A stretch of 64,000 bases of DNA from Spartobacteria bacterium (GTDB lineage Bacteria > Verrucomicrobiota > Verrucomicrobiia > Chthoniobacterales > UBA6821): positions 1 through 64,000 of the forward strand of contig CANIVT010000002.1 of assembly GCA_947471565.1 (NCBI GenBank), given 5' to 3'. The notes beneath the pieces are model-generated. The model ran no database searches and was not told the origin of the DNA. It worked only from the letters and a program-made list of their open reading frames with translations. The position numbers and the translations under genes were made by a program. Shown here one piece after another: positions 3,334-20,489 of this stretch (position 1 is its first letter; every line of letters begins with the position of its first letter).

Positions 3334-4505
3334 GAGAGCGACGTCCAGCGGGCGTTGTTCCTCGAGCTCTCGACCACCGCCTCGATGAAAGCCATACCCC
3401 GGATGCCGTCGGCGATCGTCGGGTAATCAAGCGTGATGGGATCGGGTGAGGTGCCGTCCAGAACGGCCCGGAGGTGGTTGGCAAAGTTACGGTAGATGTT
3501 GGCGAAGGCCTCAAGGTATCCCTCGGGATGGGCGGGCGGCGTGCGGGTATTGGCCGCGGCGACCGGAGCGAGGTAGCCCATGCCGGTGCGCCAGACTTCC
3601 ATCGGCTTGTCCGACCATTTCAGCAGCAGGGTGTTGGGCTCTTTCTGATGCCACTCAAGGCCTCCGAGTTCGCCGTAGACGCGGATATTGAGGTTGTTTT
3701 CTTCGCCCACCGAGATTTGGGAGGCATGAAGAACACCTTTGGCCCCGTTTTCAAAACGGAGGAGGATGTTCCCATCGTCATCGAGGGCGCGGCCCTCGAC
3801 AAAGGTGGTGAGATCGGCGGCGAGTTCTCTGATTTTCAGGCCCGTGACGTATTCAGCAAGATTCTCGGCATGGGTGCCGATGTCGCCGATACAGCCTGCG
3901 GCTCCCGAGCGGGCGGGATCGGTGCGCCAGGCGGCCTGCTTCTGGCCGCTTTCCTCCAGGCGCGTGGAGAGCCATCCCTGCGGGTACTCCACGACAACTT
4001 TCCTGATTTTCCCGAGACGACCGGAAAGAACGAGTTCCCGTGCCTGCTTGACCAGTGGATAGCCGGTGTAGTTATGGGTGAGTCCGTAGAGCAGGCCGGT
4101 GCGTGCGATGAGCCCTCCGAGTTCCTTGGCCTCCGCGAGGTCGAACGTTGCCGGTTTGTCCGAGATGACATGAAAGCCATGCTCCAAGGCACATTTGGCA
4201 GCGGGAAAATGGACATGGTTGGGAGTGACGATGGCGGCGAAATCCATCCGTTCGCCCAAGGGAAGCGCCGCTTCCCCCTTCATCATCTCCTCAAAGGTTC
4301 CGTAGCAGCGGTCAGGCGGCAGAAATAGATCGGCACCCGAATCACGGGAGCGCTGGGGATCGCTGCTGAAGGCGCCGCAGACGAGTTCGATCTGGCCGTC
4401 GATGGCGGCGGCGATGCGGTGCACTGCTCCGATGAAGGCCCCGCGGCCTCCTCCGATCATCCCCATGCGGATTTTGCGCTTTGACGCGGGTAAGGAGGTG
4501 CTCAT
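3330..4505 (-). CDS. Gfo/Idh/MocA-family oxidoreductase (cytosolic)
   Basis: An NAD(P)-dependent sugar or cyclitol dehydrogenase-type protein of 391 residues. The Rossmann loop [12 protein letters not shown] lies at 15-26, TPNHVHF at 94-100, and DKP at 116-118 replaces the usual [19 protein letters not shown] carries the family's catalytic-region histidine. There is no signal peptide, unlike the four exported members further along. The gene sits between an isomerase/epimerase (ATGA overlap) and a permease (GTGA overlap). That arrangement suggests a short pathway interconverting an oxidised sugar or inositol-like compound. The exact substrate is not deducible. Confidence 0.88.
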
Positions 4506-5551
4506 TTGCCGGCCTTATCGAAAGCCGCGTCAAAGGCGGCGGAGTTCGGCTTGAAGTCGAGCCTGCGGACAAAGGAGGCTGATTCCGTGGCGCCGTGGAC
4601 GCGATCCATGCGACCGTCCTCCCACTCAACGGAAAGGGGACCCTGGTACCCGATATCGTTCAGGGCGACGATCACCTCCTCGAACCGGATGTCTCCACGG
4701 CCGCAGGAGCGGAAGTCCCAGTGGCGCCGGGCATCCCCAAAGCTCGTGTGACCGCCGAACACGCCGACCGTGCCGTCGCCGTGACCCCACCAGGCGTCCT
4801 TCATGTGGCAGTGGAAAATGCGTCCGGCAAAGTTGCGGAGGAACTTCACGTAGTCGACACCCTGGTAGCCGAGGTGGGATGGGTCATAGTTGAAGCCAAA
4901 GCGGGGATGATTCTTCACCGCAGCCAGCGCCCTTTCGGCAGAGGCGGTGTCGAAGGCTATTTCCCCCGGGTGGACCTCAAGGGCAAAATTGACGTTTTCC
5001 CGATCAAAGGCGTCCAGAATCGGAGTCCAACGGCTGGCAAAATCATCGAAGCCCTTCTGCCAGTACTCTTGGGAGGTCGGTGGGAAGGCATAGAGAGAGT
5101 GCCAGACCGAGGAACCGGTGAAGCCGTTGACCGTGACGGGGTGCGGGTTGGATGCAAAGCTGGGCTTGCGGTTAAAGAAATTCCGGGCGGCCTTGGCGGT
5201 CAGGATCATCCGTTCCGCGGCCCTCTGACGCACTCCCTCAGCGGAACCATCACCCCAGATCTCGGGCGGAAGGATCGCCTGGTGGCGCTCATCGATCAGG
5301 TCACAGACAGCCTGGCCGACCAGATGACTGGAAACGGAGTAACAGGTGAGTCCGTTATCCGTGAGGAGCTTCCAGAGATTGTCGCAATATCCGGCTGATG
5401 TTGCGGCATCCGCCGCAGCCCCCACGTCGAAGTGATCGCCCCAGCAGGCGAGTTCGACCCCGTCGTAACCCATTTTTTTGACCAAGGGGGCGAGTTCTGT
5501 GATGGGAAGGTCGGCCCACTGGCCGGTGAAGAGGGTGACGGGGCGGGGCAT
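4502..5551 (-). CDS. Sugar phosphate isomerase/epimerase-like TIM barrel protein
   Basis: This belongs to the xylose-isomerase-like TIM barrel superfamily (IolE, hydroxypyruvate isomerase and keto-sugar epimerases). It opens with a TIM strand, [15 protein letters not shown]. The metal ligands expected of the fold are visible: Glu192 (ALEVHPGE), Asp223 (FNYDPSHLG), His249 (FHCHMKDA) and Glu309 (LSVEWED). The 349-residue length is normal. Its stop overlaps the start of the oxidoreductase gene (ATGA), so it is the first gene of a coupled minus-strand trio. Relatives act on 3-keto-sugars and inosose; either would suit the neighbouring oxidoreductases. Confidence 0.87.
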
Positions 5552-5754
5552 GACGTGATGATTAGGGGGTGCTTAGTTTTTGGTTAAGCCAAAGAAAGCA
5601 AGAGACGGCATTTGATGACAATGATGAAAGATTCTCGCGGGCATTTGAGGTTGGTCGGTGACCCGCTGTTTTCTTGAGACGCCCCAAGCCCGGCGTTTCT
5701 CTTCGGAAAGTTTTTTGCATGTTTTCCCATTTTACGATCTCTTAGGCATTCAAG

Positions 5755-7110
5755 ATGTCCCTCCCCCAGGAACTCGATCGACGAAGATTCCTCAAGCTGT
5801 CCTCGGCTGGAGTTCTGGCGGCGTTTCTACCATTGCCAGCAAGGGCATTTTCCGATGCTTTCCCGCCGCTGGGAACTGCGCCATCTCGAAAAATCACCCT
5901 GGGAGTGATCGGTTGCGGATGGAGGGGGGGCGAACTGCTCACCAACGCGCTTGGATCGAATGAGATCCGGGTGATCGCGACATGCGATGTGAATCTGGAA
6001 AACGCCCGCTCGGCTGCCGCGCTTGTCGACGCATTTTACGGCTTCCGGAAAGCCTCCGGAACTTCCCGGGGATGCAGCATTTACAAGGATTTCAGGGAAT
6101 TGCTGGCACGATCGGATCTCGACGCCGTCATCATCGCCACGCCGGATCACTGGCATGCGTTAATGACGGTCGCTGCTGTCAATCAGGGGAAGGATGTCTA
6201 TGTCGAAAAGCCCCTCGCCAAAAGCATTCCCGAGGGGAGGGCGGTGGTCGATGCAGTCTCCAGAACGGGGGCTGTCGTGCAGGTGGGGAGCCAGCAGCGC
6301 TCCATGCGAAGCTTCCAGCGAGTGGTGGAATTGGTGCGGAACGGCCATCTCGGAAAAATCGAACGAGTGATCGTTCATTTGCCTCGTTCCATGCGCTTCA
6401 AGGGAGGGGATCCCGTGCCACCCCTTGCCCCCGAGTTTCCTCCCGTAGGTTTTGACTATGATCTCTGGCTGGGACCAGCACCCCAAGTGCCCTACTTCGC
6501 TGCCCGCTGCGATTATAACTGGCGCTGGTCCTATGATTACAGCGGAGGCCAGGTCTCCAACTGGATCGGACATCATTACGACATCGCTGCCTGGGCCCTA
6601 GGGCTTCAGACGCAGTTCCCCGTCGAGATTTTCAATGCCCGTGCCACCTTTCCTAAATCGAATCCGCTATTCAACACGGCGACCGACTTTTCGTTCTCGA
6701 GTCGTTATGCCGACGGACGGGTGATCGATGTCCTTTCCTCGGGCTCGGAGGAGGCTGGGGTTGCCGTCCGTATCGAGGGATCCTCAGGTTGGGTGGAAAG
6801 TTCCCGTTCCTTTTTTCGCACCTCGTCGGAGGACCTGCGTCGGGCGACCATTCCCGCGGAAGGGTTCCGGTGCCTCTCCGTGAACCATCTCTCGGACTTT
6901 GTGCACGCCGTCCGGAACCGCACGGAGCCGGTATGCCCGGTCGGTGACGGACACCGCATTGCAGCAGTCGCCCATCTTGCCAACGCGGCTTTCCTTTCCG
7001 GGCGTTCCTCCGTCCGCTTCGATGCAGACACCGAGCGGATCCTGGGTGCCCCTGATGCCGATGCACTGCTCGTTTCGACGTTCCGTGCGCCCTGGTCCCT
7101 CCCTGTTTAG
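5755..7110 (+). CDS. Tat-exported Gfo/Idh/MocA oxidoreductase 1
   Basis: A 451-residue member with a twin-arginine signal (RRRFLKL at 9-15, then a hydrophobic stretch to about residue 30). It should therefore be folded with its dinucleotide in the cytosol and exported, as known for glucose-fructose oxidoreductase. The Rossmann loop GVIGCGWRG lies at 50-58, TPDHWH at 129-134 and EKP at 151-153. A GGQVSNWIGHHYDIA block holds the His pair at 273-274. It is closely similar to the product of 11235-12554, which points to duplication. It is the first gene of the plus-strand island, about 200 bases from the divergent isomerase gene. Confidence 0.9.
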   Translation: MSLPQELDRRRFLKLSSAGVLAAFLPLPARAFSDAFPPLGTAPSRKITLGVIGCGWRGGELLTNALGSNEIRVIATCDVNLENARSAAALVDAFYGFRKASGTSRGCSIYKDFRELLARSDLDAVIIATPDHWHALMTVAAVNQGKDVYVEKPLAKSIPEGRAVVDAVSRTGAVVQVGSQQRSMRSFQRVVELVRNGHLGKIERVIVHLPRSMRFKGGDPVPPLAPEFPPVGFDYDLWLGPAPQVPYFAARCDYNWRWSYDYSGGQVSNWIGHHYDIAAWALGLQTQFPVEIFNARATFPKSNPLFNTATDFSFSSRYADGRVIDVLSSGSEEAGVAVRIEGSSGWVESSRSFFRTSSEDLRRATIPAEGFRCLSVNHLSDFVHAVRNRTEPVCPVGDGHRIAAVAHLANAAFLSGRSSVRFDADTERILGAPDADALLVSTFRAPWSLPV

Positions 7111-7148
7111 CCTTCACGACACGAATCACCCACTTCCCGGACACGACC

Positions 7149-8840
7149 ATGATGATCACGAAACCATGCCTCAAAGCCCTCCTTCTGCCTGCAACACTTC
7201 TTCTGACCGCGGCCACGCTGTTTTCCTCCGAGCCCAAGAAGATCCTGTTCTTCACCAAATCGAGCGGATTCGAGCATCCCGTCATTTCTTGGAAAAACGG
7301 CCAGCCGAGTTTCGCCGAGAAGGTGTTGAGCGACCTTGGCAAGAAAAACGGCTGGGAATTTACCTTCTCCAAGGACGGCTCCAAATTCAGCAAGGAGTAT
7401 CTTTCTCAGTTCGACGCCCTCTTTTTCTACACCACTGGCGACCTCTGTGCGCCCGGGACCGACAAGCAACCACCGATGACCCCCGAGGGAAAGCAGGCAT
7501 TGATCGACTCTGTGCGTTCCGGCAAAGGGTTCATCGGCACGCATTCGGCCAGCGACACCTTTCACACGGGCAATGAGTCCAAAAAGGGCCCCGATCGTTA
7601 TCAAAACCACGGATCCAAGGCCGACCCCTATGTGCTCATGTTGGGTGGTGAATTCATCAAGCATGACACCCAGCAGGTGGCCACGAACACGGTGATCGAT
7701 GCAAAATTCCCCGGATTCGCTGATCTTGGGACGAATTTCGCCTTTCTGGAGGAATGGTATTCCCTCAAGGACTTTGCCCCCGACGACCATGTCCTCACGG
7801 TGATCGATGCGCCCCGAATGAAGGGCAATTCCTACAATCGTCCTCCGTTTCCTAACACCTGGGCCCGGATGGAAGGGAAGGGGCGTGTCTGGTACACGGC
7901 GATGGGGCATCGGGAGGACGTCTGGACCAACCCCGTCTTCCAACAGATCCTGTCAGGTGGCATCAGATGGGCGCTGGGGGATGCGGTTGCTGAGGTGCCT
8001 CCGAACATTAAGGAGGCGGCTCCCGGTGCCTACACCAATCCCCCATACGTCCCCGACAAACCCAAGCCAACACCTAGCCCCTCTCCGGGCGTAGAAGTTC
8101 TGGCTGGTGACCAGTTTCCCAACACCCTTTCGGAAACCGAGAAGGCTGCAGGGTGGCAACTGCTTTGGGATGGAAAAACCACCGATGGATGGAGGGGTGC
8201 CCGTTCACAAGATTTTCCCGTGGAGGGATGGGGGATAAAGGATGGGGTTCTGACCGTTCACGAGAACGGTGGAGAGGAGTCTGCCAAAGGCGGAGACATC
8301 ATCACGTGCAACCGTTATTCGGACTTTGAGCTTACCGCCGATTTCAGGATCACGGCCGGCTGCAACAGCGGCATAAAGATCTTTGTTCAACCCGAGCTTT
8401 CGCCAGTTGACAAAAAGACCGGCGATCCGACTCATCTGGGATCCTCGATCGGTTTGGAGTTCCAAATTCTCGACGACGAGCGTCATCCTGACGCAAAGAA
8501 GGGTGTGGAAGGAAACCGCTCCATAGGCGCCCTATACGATCTTATTCCTCCCGCTAAGGACAAAAAAGTCATGCCGATGGGAGAGTGGAACCATGCAAGG
8601 ATCATTTCCCAGGGCGGGCATGTGGAGTTCTGGCTCAACGGCGTGCGTACGGTCGAATTCGACAGGGGATCGGAGCAATTCCGACAGCATGTCGCTCGTA
8701 GCAAATTCAAGAAAATCCCGGGCTTCGGCGAGTGGGAAGACGGTCACATCCTCCTGCAGGAGCACGGCGGGGAGGTTTCCTTTAGGAACATTAAGATCCG
8801 CCTCCTGAAACCCGCCCTTACCAACCCTTCAAGCCCGTGA
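7149..8840 (+). CDS. Exported ThuA-like domain fused to DUF1080 (3-keto-disaccharide hydrolase) domain
   Basis: The 563-residue protein starts with a signal peptide (about 1-27). A ThuA-like domain covers roughly 30-275, with KILFFTKSSGFEH, GTHSASD at 130-136 and WYTAMGHRED. A Pro-rich linker at 301-313 joins it to a DUF1080 concanavalin-like domain at about 335-555 (LLWDGKTTDGWRG, CNSGIKIFVQPE, NHARI, FRNIKIR). ThuA proteins are linked to trehalose utilisation and 3-keto-sugars, and DUF1080 members hydrolyse 3-keto-glycosides. The fusion puts both on one periplasmic chain. The stop overlaps the start of the next oxidoreductase (GTGA), indicating coupled expression. Confidence 0.87.
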   Translation: MMITKPCLKALLLPATLLLTAATLFSSEPKKILFFTKSSGFEHPVISWKNGQPSFAEKVLSDLGKKNGWEFTFSKDGSKFSKEYLSQFDALFFYTTGDLCAPGTDKQPPMTPEGKQALIDSVRSGKGFIGTHSASDTFHTGNESKKGPDRYQNHGSKADPYVLMLGGEFIKHDTQQVATNTVIDAKFPGFADLGTNFAFLEEWYSLKDFAPDDHVLTVIDAPRMKGNSYNRPPFPNTWARMEGKGRVWYTAMGHREDVWTNPVFQQILSGGIRWALGDAVAEVPPNIKEAAPGAYTNPPYVPDKPKPTPSPSPGVEVLAGDQFPNTLSETEKAAGWQLLWDGKTTDGWRGARSQDFPVEGWGIKDGVLTVHENGGEESAKGGDIITCNRYSDFELTADFRITAGCNSGIKIFVQPELSPVDKKTGDPTHLGSSIGLEFQILDDERHPDAKKGVEGNRSIGALYDLIPPAKDKKVMPMGEWNHARIISQGGHVEFWLNGVRTVEFDRGSEQFRQHVARSKFKKIPGFGEWEDGHILLQEHGGEVSFRNIKIRLLKPALTNPSSP

Positions 8841-10243
8841 ATCCAAGTTTCCTCCCAATACGCCGCAGGTCCTTTCTGAAGGGGGCCCTTTGCACCGGTG
8901 CGTCCGCATTTTTCTTGCCCCGCTTTTTGGCTGCTGATCCCTCGGGAGGAAAAATCAACCTCGCCTGTTGCGGGATAGGGAACCGCGGGGCCGAGGATGT
9001 GATGTCTTTCGCCAAAACCGGCCTGGTGAATTTTGTCGCCTTCTGTGACACGGACATGGGGGCTCCGCATACCGAAAAAGTGCTGAAAATGTTCCCGGAC
9101 GTCCCCCGTTTTCAGGACTTCCGGCAGATGTTCGACAAGATGGGCAAACAGATCGAAGCGGTATGCATAGGGACTCCGGACTTTTCGCACTTTCCCATCG
9201 CGATGCTGTCGATGTCCTTGGGAAAACATGTGTATTGTGAGAAGCCGATGGGACAGAGTTTTCGTCAGATCGCGCTCATGATGGAGGCCGAGCGGAAGTA
9301 CAAAGTGGCCGCTCAAATGGGCAATCAGGGCCATTCCGAGGCAAACTATTTCCAGTTCAAGGCTTGGACCGAGGCAGGCTTGATCAAAAACGTCACCAGG
9401 ATCGATGCCTTCATGAACAAGCACCGTCGCTGGCATGGGATGCATGTTGACGGCTATCTCCCCGCCGAATCCATACCCCCGTCGTTGGATTGGCCCGACT
9501 GGTTATCAACAGCGCAGGAGCACGCCTACAACAAGGGCTACATGAACGGGGAATGGCGCTCTTGGTATGACTTCGGCAACGGCGCGCTCGGTGACTGGGG
9601 AGCCCACATCTTCGACACCTCGCATGAGTTCCTTTACCTGGGGCTGCCCTCCGATGTGGAGGCCGTGAAACTCGATGGCTGGAGCCCCTACATCTTCCCG
9701 CAGGCCTCCACGCTGGCTTTCCGTTTCCCGGAACGCGGCATGATGCCTCCTCTGACGCTCACTTGGTACGATGGCCTCAAAAACCTCCCGCCGCTTCCAA
9801 ACGATTTTGGCGAGGAGGTGGTCGATCCCAACATTCCGCCTCCAACTGCCGGTGGTAAAGATGCCCTCAAAAGCCCTACCGGCAAGGTCATCTACGGCGA
9901 AGGTCTCACCTTCAAGGGCGGTAGCCACGGGAGTACCCTGAAAATCATTCCTGATTCCAAGGCCAATGAGTTGGCATCCAGTCTACCTCCTGTGCCGAAA
10001 AGCCCTTCAAACCATTATGTGAATTTCGTCCGTGCAACCCGCGGCGAGGAGAAGTGCCGTTCCTCGTTTGCGGTTGCCGGACCCCTTTGCCAGACGATGA
10101 GCCTCGGGGTGATCGCGCAACGTTTGAACACCAAGTTCCGTTTCGATGCCGCCACCGGTCGCATCACTGACAATGACAAGGCCGATGCGTTGCTGGCTGG
10201 AGTTCCTCCGCGAAAGGACTGGGAACAGTTTTACAAACTTTGA
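8837..10243 (+). CDS. Tat-exported Gfo/Idh/MocA oxidoreductase 2
   Basis: A 468-residue protein with a GTG start overlapping the upstream stop. Its Tat signal is RRRSFLKGALCTGASAFF (9-26), followed by an AAD cleavage-like site. The Rossmann loop CCGIGNRGAEDV begins near 44, GTPDFSHF lies at 112-119 and EKP at 135-137. A GDWGAHIFDTSHEF block resembles the His-containing catalytic region. It is clearly more distant from the other three exported members and carries a long insert of about 290-390, which belongs to the planctomycete/verrucomicrobial type. Translational overlap with the ThuA-DUF1080 gene suggests the two act on the same sugar. Confidence 0.9.
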   Translation: MNPSFLPIRRRSFLKGALCTGASAFFLPRFLAADPSGGKINLACCGIGNRGAEDVMSFAKTGLVNFVAFCDTDMGAPHTEKVLKMFPDVPRFQDFRQMFDKMGKQIEAVCIGTPDFSHFPIAMLSMSLGKHVYCEKPMGQSFRQIALMMEAERKYKVAAQMGNQGHSEANYFQFKAWTEAGLIKNVTRIDAFMNKHRRWHGMHVDGYLPAESIPPSLDWPDWLSTAQEHAYNKGYMNGEWRSWYDFGNGALGDWGAHIFDTSHEFLYLGLPSDVEAVKLDGWSPYIFPQASTLAFRFPERGMMPPLTLTWYDGLKNLPPLPNDFGEEVVDPNIPPPTAGGKDALKSPTGKVIYGEGLTFKGGSHGSTLKIIPDSKANELASSLPPVPKSPSNHYVNFVRATRGEEKCRSSFAVAGPLCQTMSLGVIAQRLNTKFRFDAATGRITDNDKADALLAGVPPRKDWEQFYKL

Positions 10244-10301
10244 TGGTCATGCCCGATTCGGTTGCCCGAAAGTCGTACTTTGATTTTACTTCATAAGCTC
10301 C

Positions 10302-11192
10302 ATGAGAAGAGATGATTCAATATCCAACCGGTGCAGCGCTCCTTGGCCGGTGATTTTCCCATCAACTTTTCTTGTTTTGCTGATGATTGTCGGCGGACAA
10401 GCGGACGAAGGCGTCAATAGCGGCTCAGTCGGTCCATCCCCCAAGCCTTCGCCTGCTATGGAGCCTGCGGGCACGTGGTATGTCCATGACGAAAAGCGCC
10501 CCCAACCAAAGGTCGTCACGCCTGGGGCCGCATTCAGTCAGGGCGCTCCGGCCCCTTCCGATGCCGAGGTGCTATTCGACGGACACGGACTTGCCAAGTG
10601 GGAGGGAGTCAAGACTCCCGAGCCCAGTTGGCCGACTCAGGACGACTACGTCTCTTCAACCCGAGCGGGCGGCATCCGGACCAAAGGCAAGTGGGAGGAT
10701 TTCCAACTTCATGTCGAATGGGCTGCTCCCAATCCACCTTCCGGCACGTCTCAGAGCAGAGGTAACAGCGGGATTCTGATCAATAACATGTACGAGATTC
10801 AGGTTCTTGACTCCTACCAATCGGAAACATATCCCGACGGTCAGGCAAGTGCTGTCTATGGGCAGTCGCCCCCGCTTGTGAATGCCTGCAAGCCACCCGG
10901 TGAGTGGCAGAGCTATGACATCCTTTTTGAGTCTCCTCGCTGGAACAACAAAGGGGAGTTGGTCAAGAAGGCTATCGTGACCGTCCTTCACAACGGCTTG
11001 GTGACGCAGAACCACTATGAACTGGTTGGATGCACCGACGGGATCAATCCCTCTGTCGTTCCCTATCGCTCGGCTTCCAAATACTCTGCACCCCACGATT
11101 CCAAGATGTTCATCCAGTTACAGGATCACAACAACCCCGTCCGTTTCCGCAATATCTGGATCCGCCCCATGCACTTGGGTGAGAATCTGTAA
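10302..11192 (+). CDS. Exported DUF1080 (3-keto-disaccharide hydrolase-like) protein
   Basis: A 296-residue protein with a hydrophobic leader (about 17-32) and then a low-complexity Pro/Ser region. A single DUF1080 domain covers about 85-293: LFDGHGLAKWEG, GIRTKGKWEDFQLHVEW, RGNSGILI, MYEIQVLDSY, and a C-terminal FRNIWIRPM strand. The NSGI..YEIQVLD pattern is the signature of this lectin-fold hydrolase family, which cleaves 3-keto-glycosides in characterised members. It lies between two Tat oxidoreductases, consistent with oxidation followed by cleavage. It differs enough from the DUF1080 part of the fusion protein that a second substrate class is plausible. Confidence 0.88.
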   Translation: MRRDDSISNRCSAPWPVIFPSTFLVLLMIVGGQADEGVNSGSVGPSPKPSPAMEPAGTWYVHDEKRPQPKVVTPGAAFSQGAPAPSDAEVLFDGHGLAKWEGVKTPEPSWPTQDDYVSSTRAGGIRTKGKWEDFQLHVEWAAPNPPSGTSQSRGNSGILINNMYEIQVLDSYQSETYPDGQASAVYGQSPPLVNACKPPGEWQSYDILFESPRWNNKGELVKKAIVTVLHNGLVTQNHYELVGCTDGINPSVVPYRSASKYSAPHDSKMFIQLQDHNNPVRFRNIWIRPMHLGENL

Positions 11193-11234
11193 TTCTACCC
11201 GGACCTTTCCACCACAACCATACGCACCGCTCCC

Positions 11235-12554
11235 ATGGACAGACGTTCCTTCCTACGATTGATGGCCCTTACCTCGGGTTCGACCATGTTTCCCACCATG
11301 CTGCGCGCAGCTGGAACTCCCGTTATGAGGCGATCCCCTAACGATAGGATCAACGTCGGCCTCATCGGTTGCGGTGGCCAGGGGCGTGCAGACATGAGTC
11401 AGGCGCTGGCCTCCTCCAATGCGCAGGCAATCGGTGTCTGCGACGTGAATGATTCGCATGCCGCTGCTGCCAAGCAGGATGTAGAGCATCGTTACGCTTC
11501 AGAGAAGGCCTCGGGAGCCTTCAAGGGGTGCGACACTTACCGGGATTTCCGAGAGTTGCTTTCCCGAACCGATCTGGATGCGGTCATCATCGGCACCCCG
11601 GATCATTGGCATCCGATCATTCTGATCGCTGCTGTGAATGCCGGGAAACATGTCTATGTCGAGAAGCCCTTGGCTCCAAGCATCGCTGAGTCGCGCGCGA
11701 TGGTGGACGCGGTCCGAAGAACGGGTGCGGTCGTGCAGGTGGGGGGGCAGCAACGTTCCTCCGCCTATTTTCAGAGAGGTGTGGAATTGGTACGGAATGG
11801 TTTTCTCGGGAAGATTACCAAAGTGACAGTCGGTCTGCCTCAGGGGAGGAGCGAAAAGGGAGGTCCCTTCATCACGCCTCTTGCACCGCAGACACCGCCT
11901 CCCTATTTCGACTATGACTTCTGGCTGGGGCCCGCCCCTTTTGTTCCCTATTACAAGGAGCGCTGCGATTGGAACTGGCGCTGGTCCTACGACTATGGCG
12001 GCGGTCAAGTGACCGATTGGGTAAGCCATCACTACGACATAGCCATCTGGGCCATGGGTCTCAATGGAGAGGCTCCGGTCGAGATTCTCAATGCCACGGC
12101 CGAGTTCGGTCCGCCGAGCCCGCTTTTCAACACAGCCACCAAATACCAATTCCAAGCCCGTTACTCCGGTGGCCAAATCATTGATGTGCTGCCTGGCGGT
12201 TCGGTCCGTTTTGATGGTGAAAACGGATGGGTGGATTGTTCTCGCAGCGGCGTTTTATACAGCGGCTCGAATATCAGGAATGCCATCATCCCCTCGGATG
12301 GATTCCATTGCGGGATCACGGGACAATCCCACATGGAAAATTTCCTATCCTGTATTCGGACGCGCGAAACCCCGATCCATCCTGTTTGGGACGCGCATTA
12401 CGCCGCCTCCATGGCTCATCTTGCCAACGCAGCGTTTCGGTCTGGTCTCGCTCGGGTCAAGTACGATCGCGGTGCTGAGCAGATCGTCGGGGAACCTTCC
12501 GCCAACGCCCTGCTGCACCGAGCCTACCGGGCCCCCTGGGTGTTGCCGGCATGA
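11235..12554 (+). CDS. Tat-exported Gfo/Idh/MocA oxidoreductase 3
   Basis: A 439-residue paralogue of the 5755-7110 product. The Tat signal begins at once (DRRSFLRLMALTSG). The Rossmann loop GLIGCGGQGRAD starts at 42, GTPDHWHP is at 120-127, EKP at 143-145 and SHHYDIA at 264-270. Both paralogues share WNWRWSYDY or YNWRWSYDY followed by GGQV. The last four bases overlap the start of the ThuA-HEAT gene (ATGA). Two near-identical architectures in one island suggest division of labour, for example oxidation versus reduction or different linkages, but this is inference. Confidence 0.9.
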   Translation: MDRRSFLRLMALTSGSTMFPTMLRAAGTPVMRRSPNDRINVGLIGCGGQGRADMSQALASSNAQAIGVCDVNDSHAAAAKQDVEHRYASEKASGAFKGCDTYRDFRELLSRTDLDAVIIGTPDHWHPIILIAAVNAGKHVYVEKPLAPSIAESRAMVDAVRRTGAVVQVGGQQRSSAYFQRGVELVRNGFLGKITKVTVGLPQGRSEKGGPFITPLAPQTPPPYFDYDFWLGPAPFVPYYKERCDWNWRWSYDYGGGQVTDWVSHHYDIAIWAMGLNGEAPVEILNATAEFGPPSPLFNTATKYQFQARYSGGQIIDVLPGGSVRFDGENGWVDCSRSGVLYSGSNIRNAIIPSDGFHCGITGQSHMENFLSCIRTRETPIHPVWDAHYAASMAHLANAAFRSGLARVKYDRGAEQIVGEPSANALLHRAYRAPWVLPA

Positions 12555-15500
12555 TGCACCTTTCCTCTTATCCCACCCGTTTTTTTGATCTCATGAAACT
12601 TCACTGCCTGTTTCCCTTTTACGCTTTCCTGACAGTAGCGGTTTTCGCCGAACCGATCGCGACTCCTTCCCCCTCTCCGAAAGTCTACACCACGCCCGCA
12701 CTGGCCGTGGCGCCGATTCCGGCTGCTGATCTGGACTCGATCAAGGCAGCCCTCCCTGCACGCGCCGCCACGACCCCAAAACAGCCCCGCAAGCTGCTGC
12801 TCTTCTACAGGGCGGAGGGGTTCGTTCATCCCTCCATCCCGTACGGTGTAGAAGCGATCAGTGAACTTGGCCAGAAGACCGGCGCATTCACCACGGTTTC
12901 CAGTGATGACATGGCGATGTTCGATCCCGCGACGATTAAGCAGTTCGACGCGATTGTCTTCGTCAGCACGACGCAGTTGAAATTTGAGAATCCGAATTAC
13001 AGGAAGGCCCTGCTGGATTTCGTTGCTTCAGGCAAGGGGGTGGTCGGCCTCCATGCGGCCTCCGATAATTTCCCGACTTGGCCAGAGGGACAGGAGTTGA
13101 TGGGGGGCGTCTTCCATGGTCACCCATGGCATGCGGGTGATCTCGTCGCCATCAAACTGGACGATCCGTCGCATCCCATCAACGGCGGTTTCAATAATCA
13201 GGGTTTCCGTCTCAAGGAGGAGATCTACCAGATCACCGGACCTTACGGCCGGGACAAGCAGCGGGAACTCGTGAGTCTCGACATGAGTAAGCCCGAGAAC
13301 CTGCAGAAGATGGTCGACAAGGATGGGAAACCACTGCTCGACAAGGGTGGCAAGCCCCTGATCGTGTGCACGGATAATGATTTCCCCATTTCATGGATCA
13401 AGAAAGAGGGTAATGGGCGCGTCTTCTACACCTCGCTCGGTCACAATAAGGACATCTATTTCGTTCCCCAGATCCTGCAGCACTACCTCGACGGGATTCA
13501 GTACGCCCTTGGGGATCTCGCCGCGGACGACATGCCGACATCATCACTCGGCACTCTCCCTAAGCCGGCCTTGGCACCGGAGGGATCCACGGAAACGCTC
13601 CAGAAAGTGAGCGCCGTCCCCGAACCGCCCAAGAAACAGGCCGCTCCCCAGTCACCATCTCCAGCACCGTCACCAACATCGGCCGTGACTCAGACTCCAG
13701 AGCAGATCAAGGAATCGGGTGAGGCCTCCATCAAGGATCTCCCCAAATACGCTTATGGTGATTCCACGGAGGCCCTGTTCAACGTTCTCGAGGCGATCCG
13801 ATTAGGAAATGACGAAAACCGGAAACGCTTCGAACCCGCACTCGTTGCCTTGCTCCAGGATGCCTCCGCGACGCCTGCTTCCAAGGAGACGGTTTGCCGT
13901 TGGTTGGGATGGATGGGAGGGGAGGACGCTGTTCCCGTCCTATCCAAGATCGCGACCTCGGCCTCCGGATCATTGGGTGGGTATGCCATCCGGGCTTTGG
14001 CCACCATTCCTGCAAAGTCGGCCGACATGGCCCTTGTGGATCTGCTGGCCTCAGGAGACGAAGCGCGTCAGTTGGCAGTCATGAGCTCCGTGGGGGTCCG
14101 CGGCACCACCACCGCGATTCCCAAGCTCTCGAAAATCGCGACTGCGAAATCCCCTCTTGTTTCCGAAGCGGCATTCCAGGCGCTTGCCGCATTGCGTTGC
14201 GTTGAATCCCTGAATGCGATCCTCAAGGTCAAGGCCACGGCGGGTAACGGGACGTTCCAGAATGAGGCCGTGATCAGTGCCTCCTCTTCACTGGTCGCAA
14301 AAGGAAAAGCCTTGCCCGTCGCTGCCTCCGAAAAACTCAGTTCAATAGCGGGATCCAAAGCCTCCTATGCCCAGCGCCTCTCTGCCCTGCGCGTTCTTCT
14401 TTCCGCAAAATTCCCAGCAGGGGTGCCGCAAGCAATTTCGTTCCTCAAGAGTGAGGACTACCACCTCCGAGAGGGTGCCGCCGAGTCGTTGGCTGAGTTG
14501 GGAACACCCGATCAATTGTCTGCAATTTCCTGGGATGAAGCCGCCGATGCCAGGGTTGTGCTTTTGAAGGGGCTTGCGCAGAAAGCCAATCCTGCATCCC
14601 TTCCTCTGTTTCTTGAGGCGCTTGCCAGCTCTGACGATAATGTTCGTTTGGCTGCGATCGACGGCATCTCTCGTAGCGGAGATGGGAAGAATCTCGAGAT
14701 GCTGACCCCGCTGCTTTCGGACACCAATGCTATCCTGGCACGGGCCGCCAAGAGTGCCGTTGCGGGTCTGAAGGGGGGCGATGTGGGTGACCGACTGATC
14801 TCGTTGGAGGGCTCCACCAACCCCGCTGTTTCCGGCATTCTGCTCTCCGTGCTTGCCGATCGCCAGGATCACAAGGCTTTCGATGCAGCGATCGCTGCCA
14901 TGAGTTCCCAGGACCCAGCTCTTCGTGCCGCAGGTTACGGGTCCTTTTCACGTCTTGCGGCTTCCGGTGATCTTGCCAAGTGCCTCGCCTTGGTGCCGAC
15001 GGTGAAGGAAGCTTATGCCGAGAACTTCCAGAAGGGTTTGGTCCGTGCCGTCCTTCTGGATCCCTCGCCTTCCTCGTCCGCCGCCCAGATCAGCGCTGCA
15101 TTCGATCAAGGAAATGCCGCCCAGAAAGAAATCATGATCAATGTGCTTGCTCGTCTCGAGGTCAAGGAGGCCAATGACAAGCTGCAATCCATCCTCTCCT
15201 CGACGGATGCCGACCAGCGGAAGCAGGCTGTCAGGGCCCTTGCCTCGGCGCGAAGCAGCGCTTCACTTGAATTGCTCCCAGCGGTCGCGGAAAATGGTCA
15301 GACGAATTCGGAAAAAATCCTCGCCCTGAAGGGGTACATCGACACGATCGGGGCAATCTCGGACTTGAAGGACAACAAGCGGTTCGAGGCTTACCAAAAG
15401 GCATGGAAACTCGCTGTCCGTGACGAGGAAAAGGCTGCCGTCCGGTCCGCGGTGAATAAAATCCCGCAGAAAAAAATTCCCAAGGGCAAGGAAGCCGTGG

Positions 15501-15571
15501 ACTTCCTTAAGGAAATCAACACACCTTCACCGACACCCGCCGGAGCGCAATCCACGCCGGCAAAAATCTAA
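12551..15571 (+). CDS. Exported ThuA-like domain fused to HEAT-repeat solenoid
   Basis: A 1006-residue protein; the likely functional start is Met15 (base 12593), which begins a signal peptide. A ThuA-like domain spans about 80-325 (KLLLFYRAEGFVHPS, VGLHAASDNF at 165-174, HGHPWHAGD, VFYTSLGHNKD). A Pro-rich linker covers 355-382, and the rest (about 400-985) is an alanine/leucine-rich alpha solenoid of HEAT-like repeats. HEAT solenoids bind proteins or glycans, so a scaffold role for the exported sugar enzymes is conceivable but unproven. It overlaps the upstream oxidoreductase by ATGA. Hidden secondary starts and exact repeat limits were not resolved. Confidence 0.85.
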   Translation: MMHLSSYPTRFFDLMKLHCLFPFYAFLTVAVFAEPIATPSPSPKVYTTPALAVAPIPAADLDSIKAALPARAATTPKQPRKLLLFYRAEGFVHPSIPYGVEAISELGQKTGAFTTVSSDDMAMFDPATIKQFDAIVFVSTTQLKFENPNYRKALLDFVASGKGVVGLHAASDNFPTWPEGQELMGGVFHGHPWHAGDLVAIKLDDPSHPINGGFNNQGFRLKEEIYQITGPYGRDKQRELVSLDMSKPENLQKMVDKDGKPLLDKGGKPLIVCTDNDFPISWIKKEGNGRVFYTSLGHNKDIYFVPQILQHYLDGIQYALGDLAADDMPTSSLGTLPKPALAPEGSTETLQKVSAVPEPPKKQAAPQSPSPAPSPTSAVTQTPEQIKESGEASIKDLPKYAYGDSTEALFNVLEAIRLGNDENRKRFEPALVALLQDASATPASKETVCRWLGWMGGEDAVPVLSKIATSASGSLGGYAIRALATIPAKSADMALVDLLASGDEARQLAVMSSVGVRGTTTAIPKLSKIATAKSPLVSEAAFQALAALRCVESLNAILKVKATAGNGTFQNEAVISASSSLVAKGKALPVAASEKLSSIAGSKASYAQRLSALRVLLSAKFPAGVPQAISFLKSEDYHLREGAAESLAELGTPDQLSAISWDEAADARVVLLKGLAQKANPASLPLFLEALASSDDNVRLAAIDGISRSGDGKNLEMLTPLLSDTNAILARAAKSAVAGLKGGDVGDRLISLEGSTNPAVSGILLSVLADRQDHKAFDAAIAAMSSQDPALRAAGYGSFSRLAASGDLAKCLALVPTVKEAYAENFQKGLVRAVLLDPSPSSSAAQISAAFDQGNAAQKEIMINVLARLEVKEANDKLQSILSSTDADQRKQAVRALASARSSASLELLPAVAENGQTNSEKILALKGYIDTIGAISDLKDNKRFEAYQKAWKLAVRDEEKAAVRSAVNKIPQKKIPKGKEAVDFLKEINTPSPTPAGAQSTPAKI

Positions 15572-15599
15572 GAACCAAACATCCCGAAAACTTTCACCC

Positions 15600-16124
15600 A
15601 TGAGCACCACAAACTCCACCTCACTGCTGAACGGCCAGACACTGGCCTTTCTTATTCTTCGCGGCTGGCTTGGCATCCGAGCCCTGATCGCGGGAATCGA
15701 CAAATACTCCGAATCCGTGAAGGTGCAGAAACCGCTGATGGATCCGGTCACCGGCATGCAGGATCCAAGCGGCGCGATGGTCGACGTGATCCAGAAAGTC
15801 TACGGACTGCACAGGTATCATGCAGTTCCCCAGGTCCTTCAGGACAAGTTTGCCCTGGAACCTCTGCTTCCCTCTTTTCTCCTCAAACCGTTTTACGCGC
15901 TTCTCGGCCCCTCACTTATTATTTTGGGTATCACGCTGTTGCTCGGACTCTGCACCCGCATCTCCCTCGCTCTGCAGGGTGTCCTCTACATCGCCCTCAC
16001 GATCGGCCTCATGCTCATCAATCAGAATGACGGTGCCACCTTCCTTGGCATCCACATCGTGCTTGTGGCCATGGCCCTCGTGCTGGTCGACAACAACCGG
16101 CTCACCCTTCTCAAGAAATGGTAA
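15600..16124 (+). CDS. DoxX-like membrane protein
   Basis: A 174-residue membrane protein with four hydrophobic segments: about 17-33, 95-115, 118-138 and 143-162. The order and size match the DoxX/DoxD family, whose members are quinol-oxidase accessory subunits or thiol-linked membrane proteins. A periplasmic-type loop at about 35-90 separates the first two segments. It is sandwiched between ThuA-HEAT and the fourth oxidoreductase, whose start overlaps its stop by seven bases. A role in removing electrons from the exported dehydrogenases is an attractive inference. No heme or quinone ligand can be assigned by eye. Confidence 0.72.
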   Translation: MSTTNSTSLLNGQTLAFLILRGWLGIRALIAGIDKYSESVKVQKPLMDPVTGMQDPSGAMVDVIQKVYGLHRYHAVPQVLQDKFALEPLLPSFLLKPFYALLGPSLIILGITLLLGLCTRISLALQGVLYIALTIGLMLINQNDGATFLGIHIVLVAMALVLVDNNRLTLLKKW

Positions 16125-17479
16125 CGCTCAACGAGGCCGCTTCCGGCGGCGACATGACGCGTCGCCGTTTCATGCAACTTTCGACTGCGGCAGGTGCAGG
16201 TGCCCTGATTTCCTCCCTGCCATCACTCCGTGCCCAATCGGGCAAATCCCCGAACGACCGCCTTCAGGTGGCCCTTGTCGGACTTGGCATGGAGGGACGA
16301 GTCCTTCTTGAGTCGCTCCAGGTCATCCAGGGGATCCAACTCGTCGCCATCTGCGATATCTGGAATTACCCTCTCAAATACGTCCAGCGAAAGCTCAAAA
16401 ACGAAAGCAACCTGGACGTCAAGGCCTACGAGAATTACGAGGAATTGCTGGCAGCCGAAAAGAACCTCGACGCCGTCATCGTGGCGACTCCCGATTTCTG
16501 GCATGCCCCGATCACCAACGCCTGCCTCAAGGCCGGGATCAACGTCTATTGCGAAAAGATGATGAGCAACACCGTGGAGGGAGCGCGATCCATGGTTCGG
16601 ACGATGAAGGAGACCGGAAAACTCCTCCAGATCGGCCATCAGCGCCGCAGTAATCCCCGCTATCTCTTCGCGTTGAACCGCCTGATGAACGAGGCCAAGA
16701 TTTGCGGCCGTGTGACCGCTGCCCAGGCGCAGTGGAACCGAGCCGCCTCACCGGATCTCGGTTGGCCCAAAGGAAAGGAAATCCCGCCCGACGTCCTAAA
16801 GAAATACGGTTACTCCGACATGAACCAGTTCCGCAACTGGAGGTGGTTCAAGGCGCTGGGGGGTGGTCCCCTGAGCGATCTCGGCGCCCACCAGATCGAT
16901 ATCTTCAACTGGTGGTTCGGCGTCCATCCCCGGGCCGTGATGGCGGCCGGAGGCGTCGATTACTACCCGAACCACGAATGGTTCGACAACGCGATGGTGA
17001 TTTACGAGTACCCCCTTCCCACCGGGATTGTCCGTGCCTTCTACCAGGTGCAGACGACGACGAGTGCCGGCGGGGGCTACTGGGAGTATTTCATGGGTGA
17101 TCAGGGATCGCTCAAGATGTCCGAGGATCCGCGGTTGAGCGCGATCTGGCGCGAACCCAACGCACCCTCCTGGGATAATCTCATCTCCAAAAACTACATC
17201 CGGCCCCAGGAACCCACCTATGCGGCTCCGAAGGCGGACGATGCCAAGGTGGATGCCAGGGAAACCCCGGCGGCGGCGGTCTTTGACATGCCGATCAGCT
17301 TCAACAAAAAGATCCACCAACCTCACCTCGAAAACTTCTTTGACTCCATCCGAGGCAAGGCAAAACTCAATTGCCCGGCCGACGAGGCCTTCGCAAGCGA
17401 GTATGCGATCATGATGGCCAACGAGGCGGTGACCGCCCGTCGCATGCTTGACCTTGATCCAAAGGACTTTATTGCCTGA
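16118..17479 (+). CDS. Tat-exported Gfo/Idh/MocA oxidoreductase 4 (variant EKM motif)
   Basis: The open frame gives 453 residues; Met13 (base 16154) directly precedes the Tat motif TRRRFMQLSTAAGAGAL and is the likelier start. The Rossmann segment VALVGLGMEGR, ATPDFWH and HQRRSNPRYLFA are present. The normally invariant EKP is EKM here (VYCEKMMSN), so the proline next to the catalytic-region lysine is replaced while the lysine is kept. LSDLGAHQIDIFNWW provides the conserved histidine. It follows the DoxX gene with a seven-base overlap and precedes a discoidin-like gene. It forms a different branch from oxidoreductases 1 and 3. Confidence 0.88.
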   Translation: MVTLNEAASGGDMTRRRFMQLSTAAGAGALISSLPSLRAQSGKSPNDRLQVALVGLGMEGRVLLESLQVIQGIQLVAICDIWNYPLKYVQRKLKNESNLDVKAYENYEELLAAEKNLDAVIVATPDFWHAPITNACLKAGINVYCEKMMSNTVEGARSMVRTMKETGKLLQIGHQRRSNPRYLFALNRLMNEAKICGRVTAAQAQWNRAASPDLGWPKGKEIPPDVLKKYGYSDMNQFRNWRWFKALGGGPLSDLGAHQIDIFNWWFGVHPRAVMAAGGVDYYPNHEWFDNAMVIYEYPLPTGIVRAFYQVQTTTSAGGGYWEYFMGDQGSLKMSEDPRLSAIWREPNAPSWDNLISKNYIRPQEPTYAAPKADDAKVDARETPAAAVFDMPISFNKKIHQPHLENFFDSIRGKAKLNCPADEAFASEYAIMMANEAVTARRMLDLDPKDFIA

Positions 17480-17509
17480 TTCGCAGCAAACCAACACCAA
17501 CTCCATCCC

Positions 17510-18181
17510 ATGAAGACTCCGTCACTTGCCCTCCTCGCCCTCCTCCTGACAGCTGGTGTCTCGTCTCTCCGTGCCCAGGACGGCAAGGTGCCCCTGACCA
17601 CCGCTTTTCCTCCCCCGCTGACCATCGGCACCCCGGTTCCCATCAAGCTCCCCAACCTTGAGGCTCTTGATCCCAACAAGAAGCAGGAACTGATGGTGCC
17701 CGCCGACACGACCAATCTGGCGCTGAAAAAGCCTGTCAAATCCAGCGACTCGGACCCCCTTCTCGGGACCCTTGACCTGGTGACCGACGGCGTCAAGAGC
17801 GCCGACGAGGGTAATTATGTCGAGCTTGCCCCCGGCAAGCAGTGGATCCAGATCGACCTCGGTTCCAAAGCCGACATCTACGCCCTCTGGGTCTGGCATT
17901 ACCATTCCCAGAAACGTGCCTACAAGGGGGTCGTCGTGCAGGTGTCCGATGATCCCGATTTCATCGACGGGGTTAAGACCATCTTCAACAACGACGCCGA
18001 TAACAGCAACGGACTCGGCGCGGGGAAGGATCCCGCCTACATCGAAACCAATCAGGGACGCCTGATGCCCGTCAAGGAACCCGTTCAGGGACGCTACGTT
18101 CGCCTGTATTCCAACGGCAACTCCTCCAATCCGAGCAACCACTACATCGAGGTGGAGGTTTACGGAAAGCCGGCGAAATAG
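17510..18181 (+). CDS. Exported discoidin-like (F5/8 type C) carbohydrate-binding-type protein
   Basis: A 223-residue protein with a clear signal peptide (1-23, ending LRAQ). The region from about 68 to 220 has the jelly-roll pattern of F5/8 type C domains: NLALKKPVKSS at the entry, DGVKSADEGNYVEL, QWIQIDLGSKADIYALWVWH, VVVQVSDDPDF, and RYVRLYSNG near the end. These domains usually bind glycans or cell surfaces. No catalytic domain is attached. Its place at the end of the oxidoreductase series suggests it tethers or presents sugar substrates for the exported enzymes. Confidence 0.8.
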   Translation: MKTPSLALLALLLTAGVSSLRAQDGKVPLTTAFPPPLTIGTPVPIKLPNLEALDPNKKQELMVPADTTNLALKKPVKSSDSDPLLGTLDLVTDGVKSADEGNYVELAPGKQWIQIDLGSKADIYALWVWHYHSQKRAYKGVVVQVSDDPDFIDGVKTIFNNDADNSNGLGAGKDPAYIETNQGRLMPVKEPVQGRYVRLYSNGNSSNPSNHYIEVEVYGKPAK

Positions 18182-18262
18182 GTTCGGTCATTCCACTCGG
18201 GGTGATCGGGATCCCCACGCCCTCCTTCCTTCCTGAGAGGCGGGAATCGGAGACCTACCGTG

Positions 18263-19087
18263 ATGGAATCAATACACGCTTTCAACCACCAGGCGATGAG
18301 CACCTGGTGGCAGGTGCGGATCTCCGGCGGGGAGGCAATGTACGCGGCCCAGGCGGCTCAGGCCGCGTTCGCGGTGGCGGACCGGATGGAGCGGCTCATG
18401 AGCAGGTTTCGCGACGACAGCGAGATCTCCGCGATTGCCGGACTGCCCGACGGTGGACGCAGGAGAATTCCGAAAGAGCTTTTCGATTGCCTTTTCCTGG
18501 CCAGGGAAATGGAGGCATTGACCGGGGGTGCCTTCGATATCCGCACCGCCGCAGGTATTTCCCGGGACGCCCTGCCCCGGTGGAGACTTGAAGCCGCGGA
18601 ACGGGAGATCCTAGTCGATTCAGGGTCGTGCCGTTTGGATCTCGGTGCGATCGCCAAAGGATTCACGCTGGATCGGATGGCGGAGGAACTTGCCGAATGG
18701 GAAATCTCATCGTGCCTGCTGATGAGTTCTGGAAGCAGCATCCTCGCCGGTGATCCCCCCTCCGGGGAGGAGGGTTGGAGGGTTCGGCTTGGAGAGGGGG
18801 AAGTGGCGAGGGAAGTGCTTCTTGCTGGGCGTGCTATCGGAACATCCGGAACCGCAATGAGGGGGAGCCATATCATCGATTCCGCCACGGGAGATGCATC
18901 CTGCCGCCATTGTCGCTCTTGGGCCATGAGCGGATCCGCTGCAGAGGCCGACGCGTTGTCGACCGCCTGGATGAACATGGACTGGGATCAGATTGCCGAA
19001 TGCTGTGCACGTCGACCTGATATCGGCGCCGTCATCATTGACCACGGAGGGGAAACACGTTCGGCGGGAACCCTGTCCGAATTTTGA
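18263..19087 (+). CDS. apbE: FAD:protein FMN transferase (ApbE family)
   Basis: ApbE attaches FMN covalently to Thr/Ser of exported redox proteins. Family blocks are visible: an N-terminal NHQAMSTWWQVRI, FRDDSEIS, LTGGAFDIRT, DLGAIAKGFTLDRM (substrate and Mg region) and HIIDSATG near the C-terminus. I chose the ATG at 18263; a GTG directly before it at 18260 is also possible. No lipobox or signal peptide is obvious. The usual flavinylated partners (Nqr/Rnf subunits, FMN-binding domains) are not in the window. Placement after the oxidoreductase island may mean an ApbE-dependent electron acceptor elsewhere. Confidence 0.87.
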   Translation: MESIHAFNHQAMSTWWQVRISGGEAMYAAQAAQAAFAVADRMERLMSRFRDDSEISAIAGLPDGGRRRIPKELFDCLFLAREMEALTGGAFDIRTAAGISRDALPRWRLEAAEREILVDSGSCRLDLGAIAKGFTLDRMAEELAEWEISSCLLMSSGSSILAGDPPSGEEGWRVRLGEGEVAREVLLAGRAIGTSGTAMRGSHIIDSATGDASCRHCRSWAMSGSAAEADALSTAWMNMDWDQIAECCARRPDIGAVIIDHGGETRSAGTLSEF

Positions 19088-19147: not shown

Positions 19148-20368
19148 TCAGTTTTTGGCCAAGCCGGAACGGAAATGTTTCTGAAGCGAAAAAACAATCA
19201 GGAACAGGACAATCAGTACGCAGGGCAGAACAGCTATTTTCCCAAGAACCTGCAGACCGGCCGCGGCCTCGATCGACGGGGTAGGGTGCTGGCCCAGGGA
19301 GAGCCTTGAGGCGATTCCCTGGTCGTAGATCCGTCCCATGACCGGCAGTACGATGCTCACGCTTAGCATTCCGGCTCCTCCCATGAAAGCCAGTCCCATG
19401 GCCCCCGTTTTTGGGAAACGCTCACTGACATACCCAAGCATGGTTGGCCAGAAGAAGCAGACACCGGCCGCGAAGAGCGTTGCCGCTGCGAAGGTCATGG
19501 CCCCGGATCCGATGCTCAAGGCGTAGAGTCCAGCGGCACTGATAGCGGCGCTAGCCAGTAGCATGCCTTCCGGCGCGATCCTGTGGACAAAGACACCGGC
19601 GAACATCCTGCCGATCGCCTGGATACCTGTGATCCAGACAAGAACCAGGATGCCGGATACCCCGGCATTGGTGAGGATATTGGGAATCCATTGGTTGGGA
19701 CCAAGTTCCGTGGCTGCCGTGAGAAGCATGCACCCGGCCATCAGAAGGAAAACCGGGTTCAGGCACGCGGTGAACATCTCCTTTGTCGAGACGCCCTGCT
19801 GGACGCGCTCGGTTCTTGGAAATTCCTGACCAAGAAACATTGCGGCATAAATCACGAGCGGGATGAGCATGCAGCCGAACTGGATCCTCCAACCAAGGCC
19901 AAGGTGTCCCAAGGCAAAGGATAGCAGACCTCCGATGACGATCCCACCGGGGAACCAGACATGAAAGCCGTTGAGTCTGGTTGTCTTGTCGTCGGGATAG
20001 AGCGTCGCGACGAGGGGATTGCAGGCCGCCTCCACGGACCCGTTGGCGATTCCAAAGAGGAGGGTGCCGGCATACAGGCTATGGTAATCCCAGGCAAAGA
20101 GTGTCAGCAGGATGCCTGCAAGGTGACCTGCAAAAGCAATCCTGACGATGGATGCCAGTCCCAGCGCGTCGCAGAGAGGTCCCCCGATCACCATTGCCAA
20201 GGTGAATCCCCAGAAGGCCGTCCCGTTGATCCAACCCAGCTGTTCATTGGAAAGATGGAACTCCGAACCCCATGAGGCGGCGGCGCTTCCCCTGAGGGCA
20301 AAGCTCATGGCGGTGACGATCAGAGCGACGCAACTGGCGCGGAAAAGTCGGGATGGGGAGTGGTTCAT
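19148..20368 (-). CDS. Major facilitator superfamily transporter, sugar-type
   Basis: The open frame begins at 20401, but the methionine at 20368 (MNHSPSRLFRAS) is the more natural start, giving 406 residues. About twelve hydrophobic segments are separated by a central loop near 195-215 (PRTERVQQGVSTKEMF). FHVWFPGGIVIGGLL and GYVSERFPKTGAMGLA resemble the fucose/glucose-galactose permease-like MFS branch. The gene converges on apbE from the opposite strand. It could import the products made by the exported sugar oxidoreductases. Substrate assignment is inference. Confidence 0.85.
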   Translation of the reverse strand: MNHSPSRLFRASCVALIVTAMSFALRGSAAASWGSEFHLSNEQLGWINGTAFWGFTLAMVIGGPLCDALGLASIVRIAFAGHLAGILLTLFAWDYHSLYAGTLLFGIANGSVEAACNPLVATLYPDDKTTRLNGFHVWFPGGIVIGGLLSFALGHLGLGWRIQFGCMLIPLVIYAAMFLGQEFPRTERVQQGVSTKEMFTACLNPVFLLMAGCMLLTAATELGPNQWIPNILTNAGVSGILVLVWITGIQAIGRMFAGVFVHRIAPEGMLLASAAISAAGLYALSIGSGAMTFAAATLFAAGVCFFWPTMLGYVSERFPKTGAMGLAFMGGAGMLSVSIVLPVMGRIYDQGIASRLSLGQHPTPSIEAAAGLQVLGKIAVLPCVLIVLFLIVFSLQKHFRSGLAKN

Positions 20369-20489
20369 GGGGGTGGTGCGATTCTTTCCAAGGCATGACA
20401 CGAAGCAAGCAAGTTGGGGACAAAAGTCACTAGAGGCTTCCGGGCTTTTTTAAATTCGTTTTCACAGACTGGTTGGCTAAAAAGAAGCC

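Follow-up and report, generated by a model that had tools for sequence, protein, structure and literature searches.

A conserved DoxX-like, GfoD, discoidin and ApbE core in a verrucomicrobial gene island suggestive of oxidative glycoside cleavage in the envelope

We analyzed a 64,000-nucleotide stretch (the window) of contig CANIVT010000002.1 from a freshwater verrucomicrobial bacterium (Spartobacteria bacterium, assembly GCA_947471565.1, labeled G000; genome of 2.28 Mb, 97% complete), in which an island at 5755-19087 encodes Gfo/Idh/MocA oxidoreductases (Gfo), ThuA and DUF1080 proteins, a DoxX-like membrane protein, a discoidin protein and ApbE. From gene content, export signals, conservation and co-occurrence, we infer that the island is reasonably likely to specify an oxidative pathway that cleaves glycosides in the envelope, with one oxidoreductase, GfoD, its DoxX-like neighbor, the discoidin protein and ApbE as a conserved core unit. 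The chemistry of the island is of a known kind, and the combination appears to be new: an earlier reading made from the sequence alone (the sequence-only reading) knew of no description of it, and our searches of the open-access literature for DoxX together with Gfo and ApbE turned up no account of the core.

The core occupies the last four plus-strand genes: a DoxX/MauE-like four-helix membrane protein (15600-16124), the predicted exported enzyme GfoD (16118-17479; Pfam, twin-arginine translocation [Tat] motif and fold), in which the GxGxxG, EK and D-x-x-x-H motifs are intact, a secreted discoidin (F5/8 type C) protein (17510-18181; PF22633, PF00754) and ApbE, an FAD:protein FMN transferase (18260-19087; PF02424, 121 bits). 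Searching named genomes with a GfoD alignment returned 80 loci, which belong to Verrucomicrobiota, Acidobacteriota and, in a few cases, records labeled Lentisphaerae or planctomycete; among the cultivable relatives with the core are Terracidiphilus gabretensis (L086) and Granulicella sp. L60 (L088). Gene order was strikingly constant: DoxX-like, GfoD, discoidin, a GT-C glycosyltransferase (TIGR03663/PMT_2) and ApbE. By domain coordinates, DoxX adjoined the start of GfoD, directly upstream, in all 78 loci with room for it, and the reciprocal search from DoxX found GfoD directly downstream in every locus with room. Discoidin lay within 1.5 kb downstream in 63 of 71 loci, and GT-C and ApbE were present in 53 and 52 of 57 core loci, respectively. 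Of 59 DoxX-GfoD junctions measured, 38 showed a 7-nt overlap. The host junction at 16118, which had been read as ATGA, is a 7-nt overlap (ATGGTAA); the GTGA and ATGA overlaps described at 8837 and 12551 were as reported. The sequence-only reading had staked itself on a conserved neighborhood in related genomes, and the neighborhood proved strongly conserved across phyla. The closest named relative with the island was a Spartobacteria metagenome-assembled genome (L059, contig CAIPWR010000049), whose GfoD is 93% identical. In relatives, discoidin and ApbE are separated by a gene of about 1.5 kb that was initially suspected to encode a flavoprotein; it turned out to be the GT-C glycosyltransferase.

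Tat-signal Gfo/Idh/MocA enzymes abound in Verrucomicrobiota and related bacteria. Some relatives of the host are also rich in Gfo, ThuA and DUF1080 (15 DUF1080 matches in G026 and 25 in G036), as might be expected if the island were a coincidental grouping of common verrucomicrobial genes. In the host genome, however, just seven Gfo and two DUF1080 matches exceeded the cut-off, and nearly all were in the island: five of the seven Gfo fell within 3330-17479, together with both DUF1080 copies. All ThuA-protein matches and the single ApbE copy were there as well, a concentration that exceeds chance. Coincidence is thus highly improbable as an account of the island, and for the core it is refuted by the recurrence of its gene order across phyla.

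The genes that crowd the core point in the same direction. The share of loci with another exported-type Gfo upstream of DoxX fell from 28/64 (0-2.5 kb) through 17/59 (2.5-5 kb) and 4/54 (5-7.5 kb) to 0/44 at distances above 7.5 kb; TIM barrels likewise dropped with distance from 15/64 to 0/44, and ThuA from 15/64 to 1/44. In Acidobacteriota, Gfo and DoxX flank a TIM barrel whose twin-arginine motif reads RRKF in L086 and RREF in L091. Together, this decay and the acidobacterial arrangement indicate that the core is tied to 3-keto-sugar chemistry rather than placed there by chance.

All ten genes described at 5755-19087 were recovered on one strand by open reading frames (ORFs) and Pfam, bearing out the earlier description of four Gfo proteins with RR signals, two ThuA and two DUF1080 domains, discoidin and ApbE. 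An RRxF[LM] Tat motif was found near the N-terminus of each of the four Gfo proteins, and the host genome carries a TatC gene (188 bits). GfoA (5755-7110) and GfoC (11235-12554), assigned by Pfam and the Tat motif, are predicted to be exported. GfoB (8837-10243), also Tat-exported by prediction, is a candidate BT2158-like glycoside 3-dehydrogenase: it matched the NCBIfam glycoside 3-dehydrogenase family BT_2158_fam (NF058561) with 254 bits over 441 residues and PDB entries 8tdf and 8tdh with 165-167 bits. The same strand encodes a secreted fusion of ThuA with DUF1080, a 3-keto-glycoside-cleaving family (7149-8840; PF06283, 128 bits; PF06439, 159 bits), a secreted DUF1080 protein that is a candidate 3-keto-glycoside lyase or hydrolase (10302-11192; PF06439, 128 bits; PDB 4qhz, 191 bits) and a secreted ThuA protein with HEAT repeats (12551-15571; PF06283, 144 bits; HEAT_2, 113 bits). 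Both DUF1080 domains score far above the Pfam cut-off of 26.8 bits. Judged by these families, exported 3-keto-sugar chemistry is probable and well supported.

The island extends beyond 5755-19087 on both sides. Divergent from GfoA, on the minus strand and overlapping by 4 nt, are a xylose-isomerase-like TIM barrel (4502-5551; PF01261; PDB 2zds and 8ro4), a candidate 2-hydroxy-3-keto-glucal hydratase or related lyase, and a Gfo/Idh/MocA protein without an export signal (3330-4505; Pfam; closest PDB entry 3v5n, 421 bits), a candidate 3-keto-sugar reductase. Downstream of ApbE, a major facilitator superfamily (MFS) transporter (19148-20401, minus strand; PF07690) is a candidate sugar importer. 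We count all three in the island because of their synteny with G001 and, in part, with G027 and G030. The pair is conserved at 68-92% identity in these genomes, the leaderless Gfo being 92, 84 and 68% identical in G001, G027 and G030 and each time accompanied by the TIM barrel, and many loci have strongly similar TIM-barrel homologs upstream of the core. The MFS gene is also found next to the module in G001 and in G027, where it is a distant homolog; in 11 of 53 loci, an MFS gene followed ApbE at a distance of up to 2.5 kb. An exported 3-keto-sugar pathway, as proposed by the sequence-only reading, is supported by enzyme families, Tat motifs and TatC, but the set it listed is an incomplete pathway, since the candidate hydration and reduction steps reside in the divergent pair that it overlooked.

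In the route that we propose, the Tat-exported Gfo enzymes, which probably bind NAD(H) while still in the cytoplasm, would oxidize a glycoside at C3, and the secreted DUF1080 and ThuA proteins would split the resulting 3-keto-glycoside. Uptake of the 3-keto-sugar or 3-keto-glucal set free, possibly via the MFS protein, would be followed by hydration by the TIM barrel and reduction to an ordinary sugar by the non-exported Gfo. GfoD would most likely act on the surface of the inner membrane, where DoxX would hold or serve it. By analogy, the island with its divergent pair and MFS gene probably corresponds to a scheme of oxidation, elimination, hydration and reduction already known for glycosides: A. 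tumefaciens completes the eliminative breakdown of glycosides with a hydratase of the TIM-barrel kind and a Gfo reductase (PMC10628242), and these four steps have also been described for levoglucosan (PMC7676230) and for C-glycosides with a B. thetaiotaomicron lyase (PMC13273386).

Several known systems resemble parts of the island. The BT2156-BT2159-type pathway of B. thetaiotaomicron (BT_2158_fam, BT_2159_fam; BT2157 in PMC9007349) combines a Gfo glycoside 3-dehydrogenase, DUF1080, a TIM barrel and a second Gfo in one neighborhood, as the island would with its candidate genes; the island differs in adding four exported Gfo, ThuA fusions, DoxX, discoidin and ApbE, and its proteins score under the equivalog cut-offs. 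The A. tumefaciens elimination operon (GlycDH, AtOGE, AtHYD and a Gfo reductase; PMC10628242) shares the 8ro4-like TIM barrel beside a candidate Gfo reductase, but in the island the first oxidation would fall to a Gfo rather than to GlycDH, a GMC flavin enzyme in the literature, and cleavage to DUF1080. In Caulobacter, LacABC oxidizes a disaccharide in the periplasm and DUF1080 then cleaves the product, contributing to lactose use (PMC9007349); there, unlike in the island with its Gfo enzymes, the dehydrogenase is a membrane-bound three-part lactose dehydrogenase.

A number of observations weigh against such a route. GfoB scores under the BT_2158 equivalog cut-off of 750 bits. GfoA carries Asn in place of the usual active-site Asp (NWIGH for DWxxH), so the enzyme may be inactive or altered. 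The TIM barrel is nearer to the uncharacterized 2zds (367 bits) than to the 2-hydroxy-3-keto-glucal hydratase 8ro4 (135 bits over 329 residues), and the MFS substrate may be unrelated to the island. Finally, the GT-C between discoidin and ApbE in most relatives fits sugar breakdown poorly. This last point raises the alternative of envelope glycan synthesis, in which the GT-C (together with a GT2 in some loci) would transfer a lipid-linked sugar, GfoD would oxidize a sugar of that glycan and the catabolic genes would be adjacent for another reason. Besides the frequency of TIGR03663/PMT_2 in the core, nearby GT2 genes in L116, L117 and L129 agree with this idea, but the islands of the host and G001 have no GT-C, the host homolog being on contig C12. 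Moreover, the genes that thin out with distance from the core belong to 3-keto-sugar families, and the TIM barrel just upstream of it in Acidobacteriota carries the twin-arginine RRKF, such that we regard glycan synthesis as unlikely. On its own contig, the host TIGR03663 gene (L140, G000:C12:52000-61000), which is not part of the island, has a GT2-like gene as its divergent neighbor.

Within glycoside oxidation, two sub-cases differ in where the electrons go, and the properties of GfoD and its partner bear on both. The K-D-H site of GfoD is kept, with K147, D254 and H258 invariant over 64 sequences. In fold similarity, the GfoD model is closest to GFOR, WlbA, DgpA, glucuronide-3-dehydrogenase and levoglucosan dehydrogenase, among others. 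By profile, its closest solved relative is the glycoside 3-oxidase DgpA, a puerarin 3-oxidase that shares the Gfo fold; only the Rossmann half aligns with GfoD by sequence, and the available part of PMC11239390 mentions no DoxX partner for DgpA. The DoxX-like protein gave a sub-threshold Pfam match to MauE (16.6 bits against a cut-off of 27), and Foldseek returned no match under E 0.001. Its model (predicted local distance difference test score of 92) best matched the TMEM35A/NACHO fold (Z 13.1, root-mean-square deviation 3.3, 127 of 133 residues aligned). The second-ranked fold was vitamin K carboxylase, a hydroquinone enzyme (Z 7.2, within the chance range for a helical bundle), and we claim no VKOR-type match. 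Because this high-confidence model matches TMEM35A/NACHO, the earlier label "DoxX-like" is reasonable, although the profile score does not place the protein in the DoxX/MauE family.

One possibility, which we hold tentatively, is a closed redox cycle: the exported Gfo enzymes would keep their NAD(H) and regenerate it with 3-keto-glucose or another keto-sugar, and DoxX would be an anchor or scaffold only. DgpA works by a ping-pong mechanism, with bound NADH recycled by 3-oxo-glucose as acceptor (PMC11239390). GFOR and WlbA are among the top fold matches of GfoD, and the several exported Gfo paralogs per island could act as donor and acceptor. Such a cycle gives ApbE no role, however, and leaves the highly conserved DoxX with a merely passive one.

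Among 384 genomes of the class, ApbE occurred in 57 of the 58 whose DoxX match was strong (E 1e-34 or better), against 171 of the remaining 326 (odds ratio 52; Fisher P 2.5e-13, uncorrected for relatedness). The catalytic residues of the module ApbE (DLGxxAKG, HIID, ADALST) are kept in 58-64 of 65 copies, and in a tree of 65 module and 15 other sequences the two sets split perfectly, the module copies forming their own clade with support of 1.0. Most module copies, including that of the host, have no leader peptide, so that ApbE is expected to be active in the cytosol, as would fit a target that receives its cofactor ahead of Tat export. These findings, together with the invariant DoxX-GfoD pairing and its frequent 7-nt overlap, would be compatible with a membrane electron exit, in which GfoD, perhaps flavinylated by the leaderless ApbE and folded before export, passes electrons through DoxX to quinone; the vitamin K carboxylase match would agree, had its Z score not been in the chance range.

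No known target for ApbE was found in the host genome. ApbE-dependent extracytosolic electron transfer systems (PMC8238504, PMC11334425) similarly place an ApbE gene by genes for a membrane protein and a redox protein that is exported. In contrast to those systems, the host genome has no FMN_bind or NqrB/RnfD protein, and FMN_bind was found in only 11 of the 58 DoxX-positive genomes. The canonical flavinylation motif was essentially absent from, and not conserved in, DoxX, GfoD, discoidin or GT-C, and neither DoxX nor Gfo appears in the main texts of the two flavinylation surveys. A genome-wide search gave one clear match in a long ORF, the exact canonical DGTSGATVT (G000:C2:74014-74039, L158), in a large protein whose sequence resembles a parallel beta-helix; it lies some 55 kb away from the single ApbE gene, and we judged it probably coincidental.

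Gfo enzymes, moreover, carry NAD(P) rather than flavin, and no exit is required, since known Gfo relatives regenerate NAD by reducing 3-oxo-glucose (PMC11239390). The claim of the sequence-only reading that the island has its own membrane electron exit was therefore not sustained: ApbE lacks a leader, the genome lacks a known flavinylation target and known Gfo need no such exit. We regard an exit as doubtful and the closed cycle as somewhat likelier. The most specific form, a new membrane redox complex of DoxX, GfoD and ApbE in which GfoD would be flavinylated in the cytosol at a non-canonical site, exported by Tat and send sugar electrons to quinone via DoxX, is more doubtful still. The DoxX-GfoD-ApbE core gives concrete genes for the question of how Tat-exported Gfo recycle NAD outside the cytosol; a co-traveling FMN transferase without a known target is likewise a new place to seek ApbE substrates.

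Within its genus, the island is accessory, as most genus mates lack ThuA-HEAT, DoxX-like, DUF1080 and ApbE genes. Among 15 same-genus genomes besides the host, the full ThuA-HEAT protein and the DoxX-like protein were found only in G001; G004 gave a weak HEAT-only match, DUF1080 was found in G001 and once in G011, and ApbE was in no other genus mate listed. ThuA-HEAT homologs occur in G001 and G030, and GfoC in the same two genomes, with related copies in G027. In G001, the section with GfoA, the ThuA-DUF1080 fusion and GfoB is swapped for another, different Gfo gene and one whose protein matches DUF1080 twice (L027:287-5790), and this replacement segment adjoins two ORFs that look PAS-like. 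Elsewhere in the window, at 1297-2562, YkuD-type paralogs stand in tandem next to ALAD, an order common to G001.

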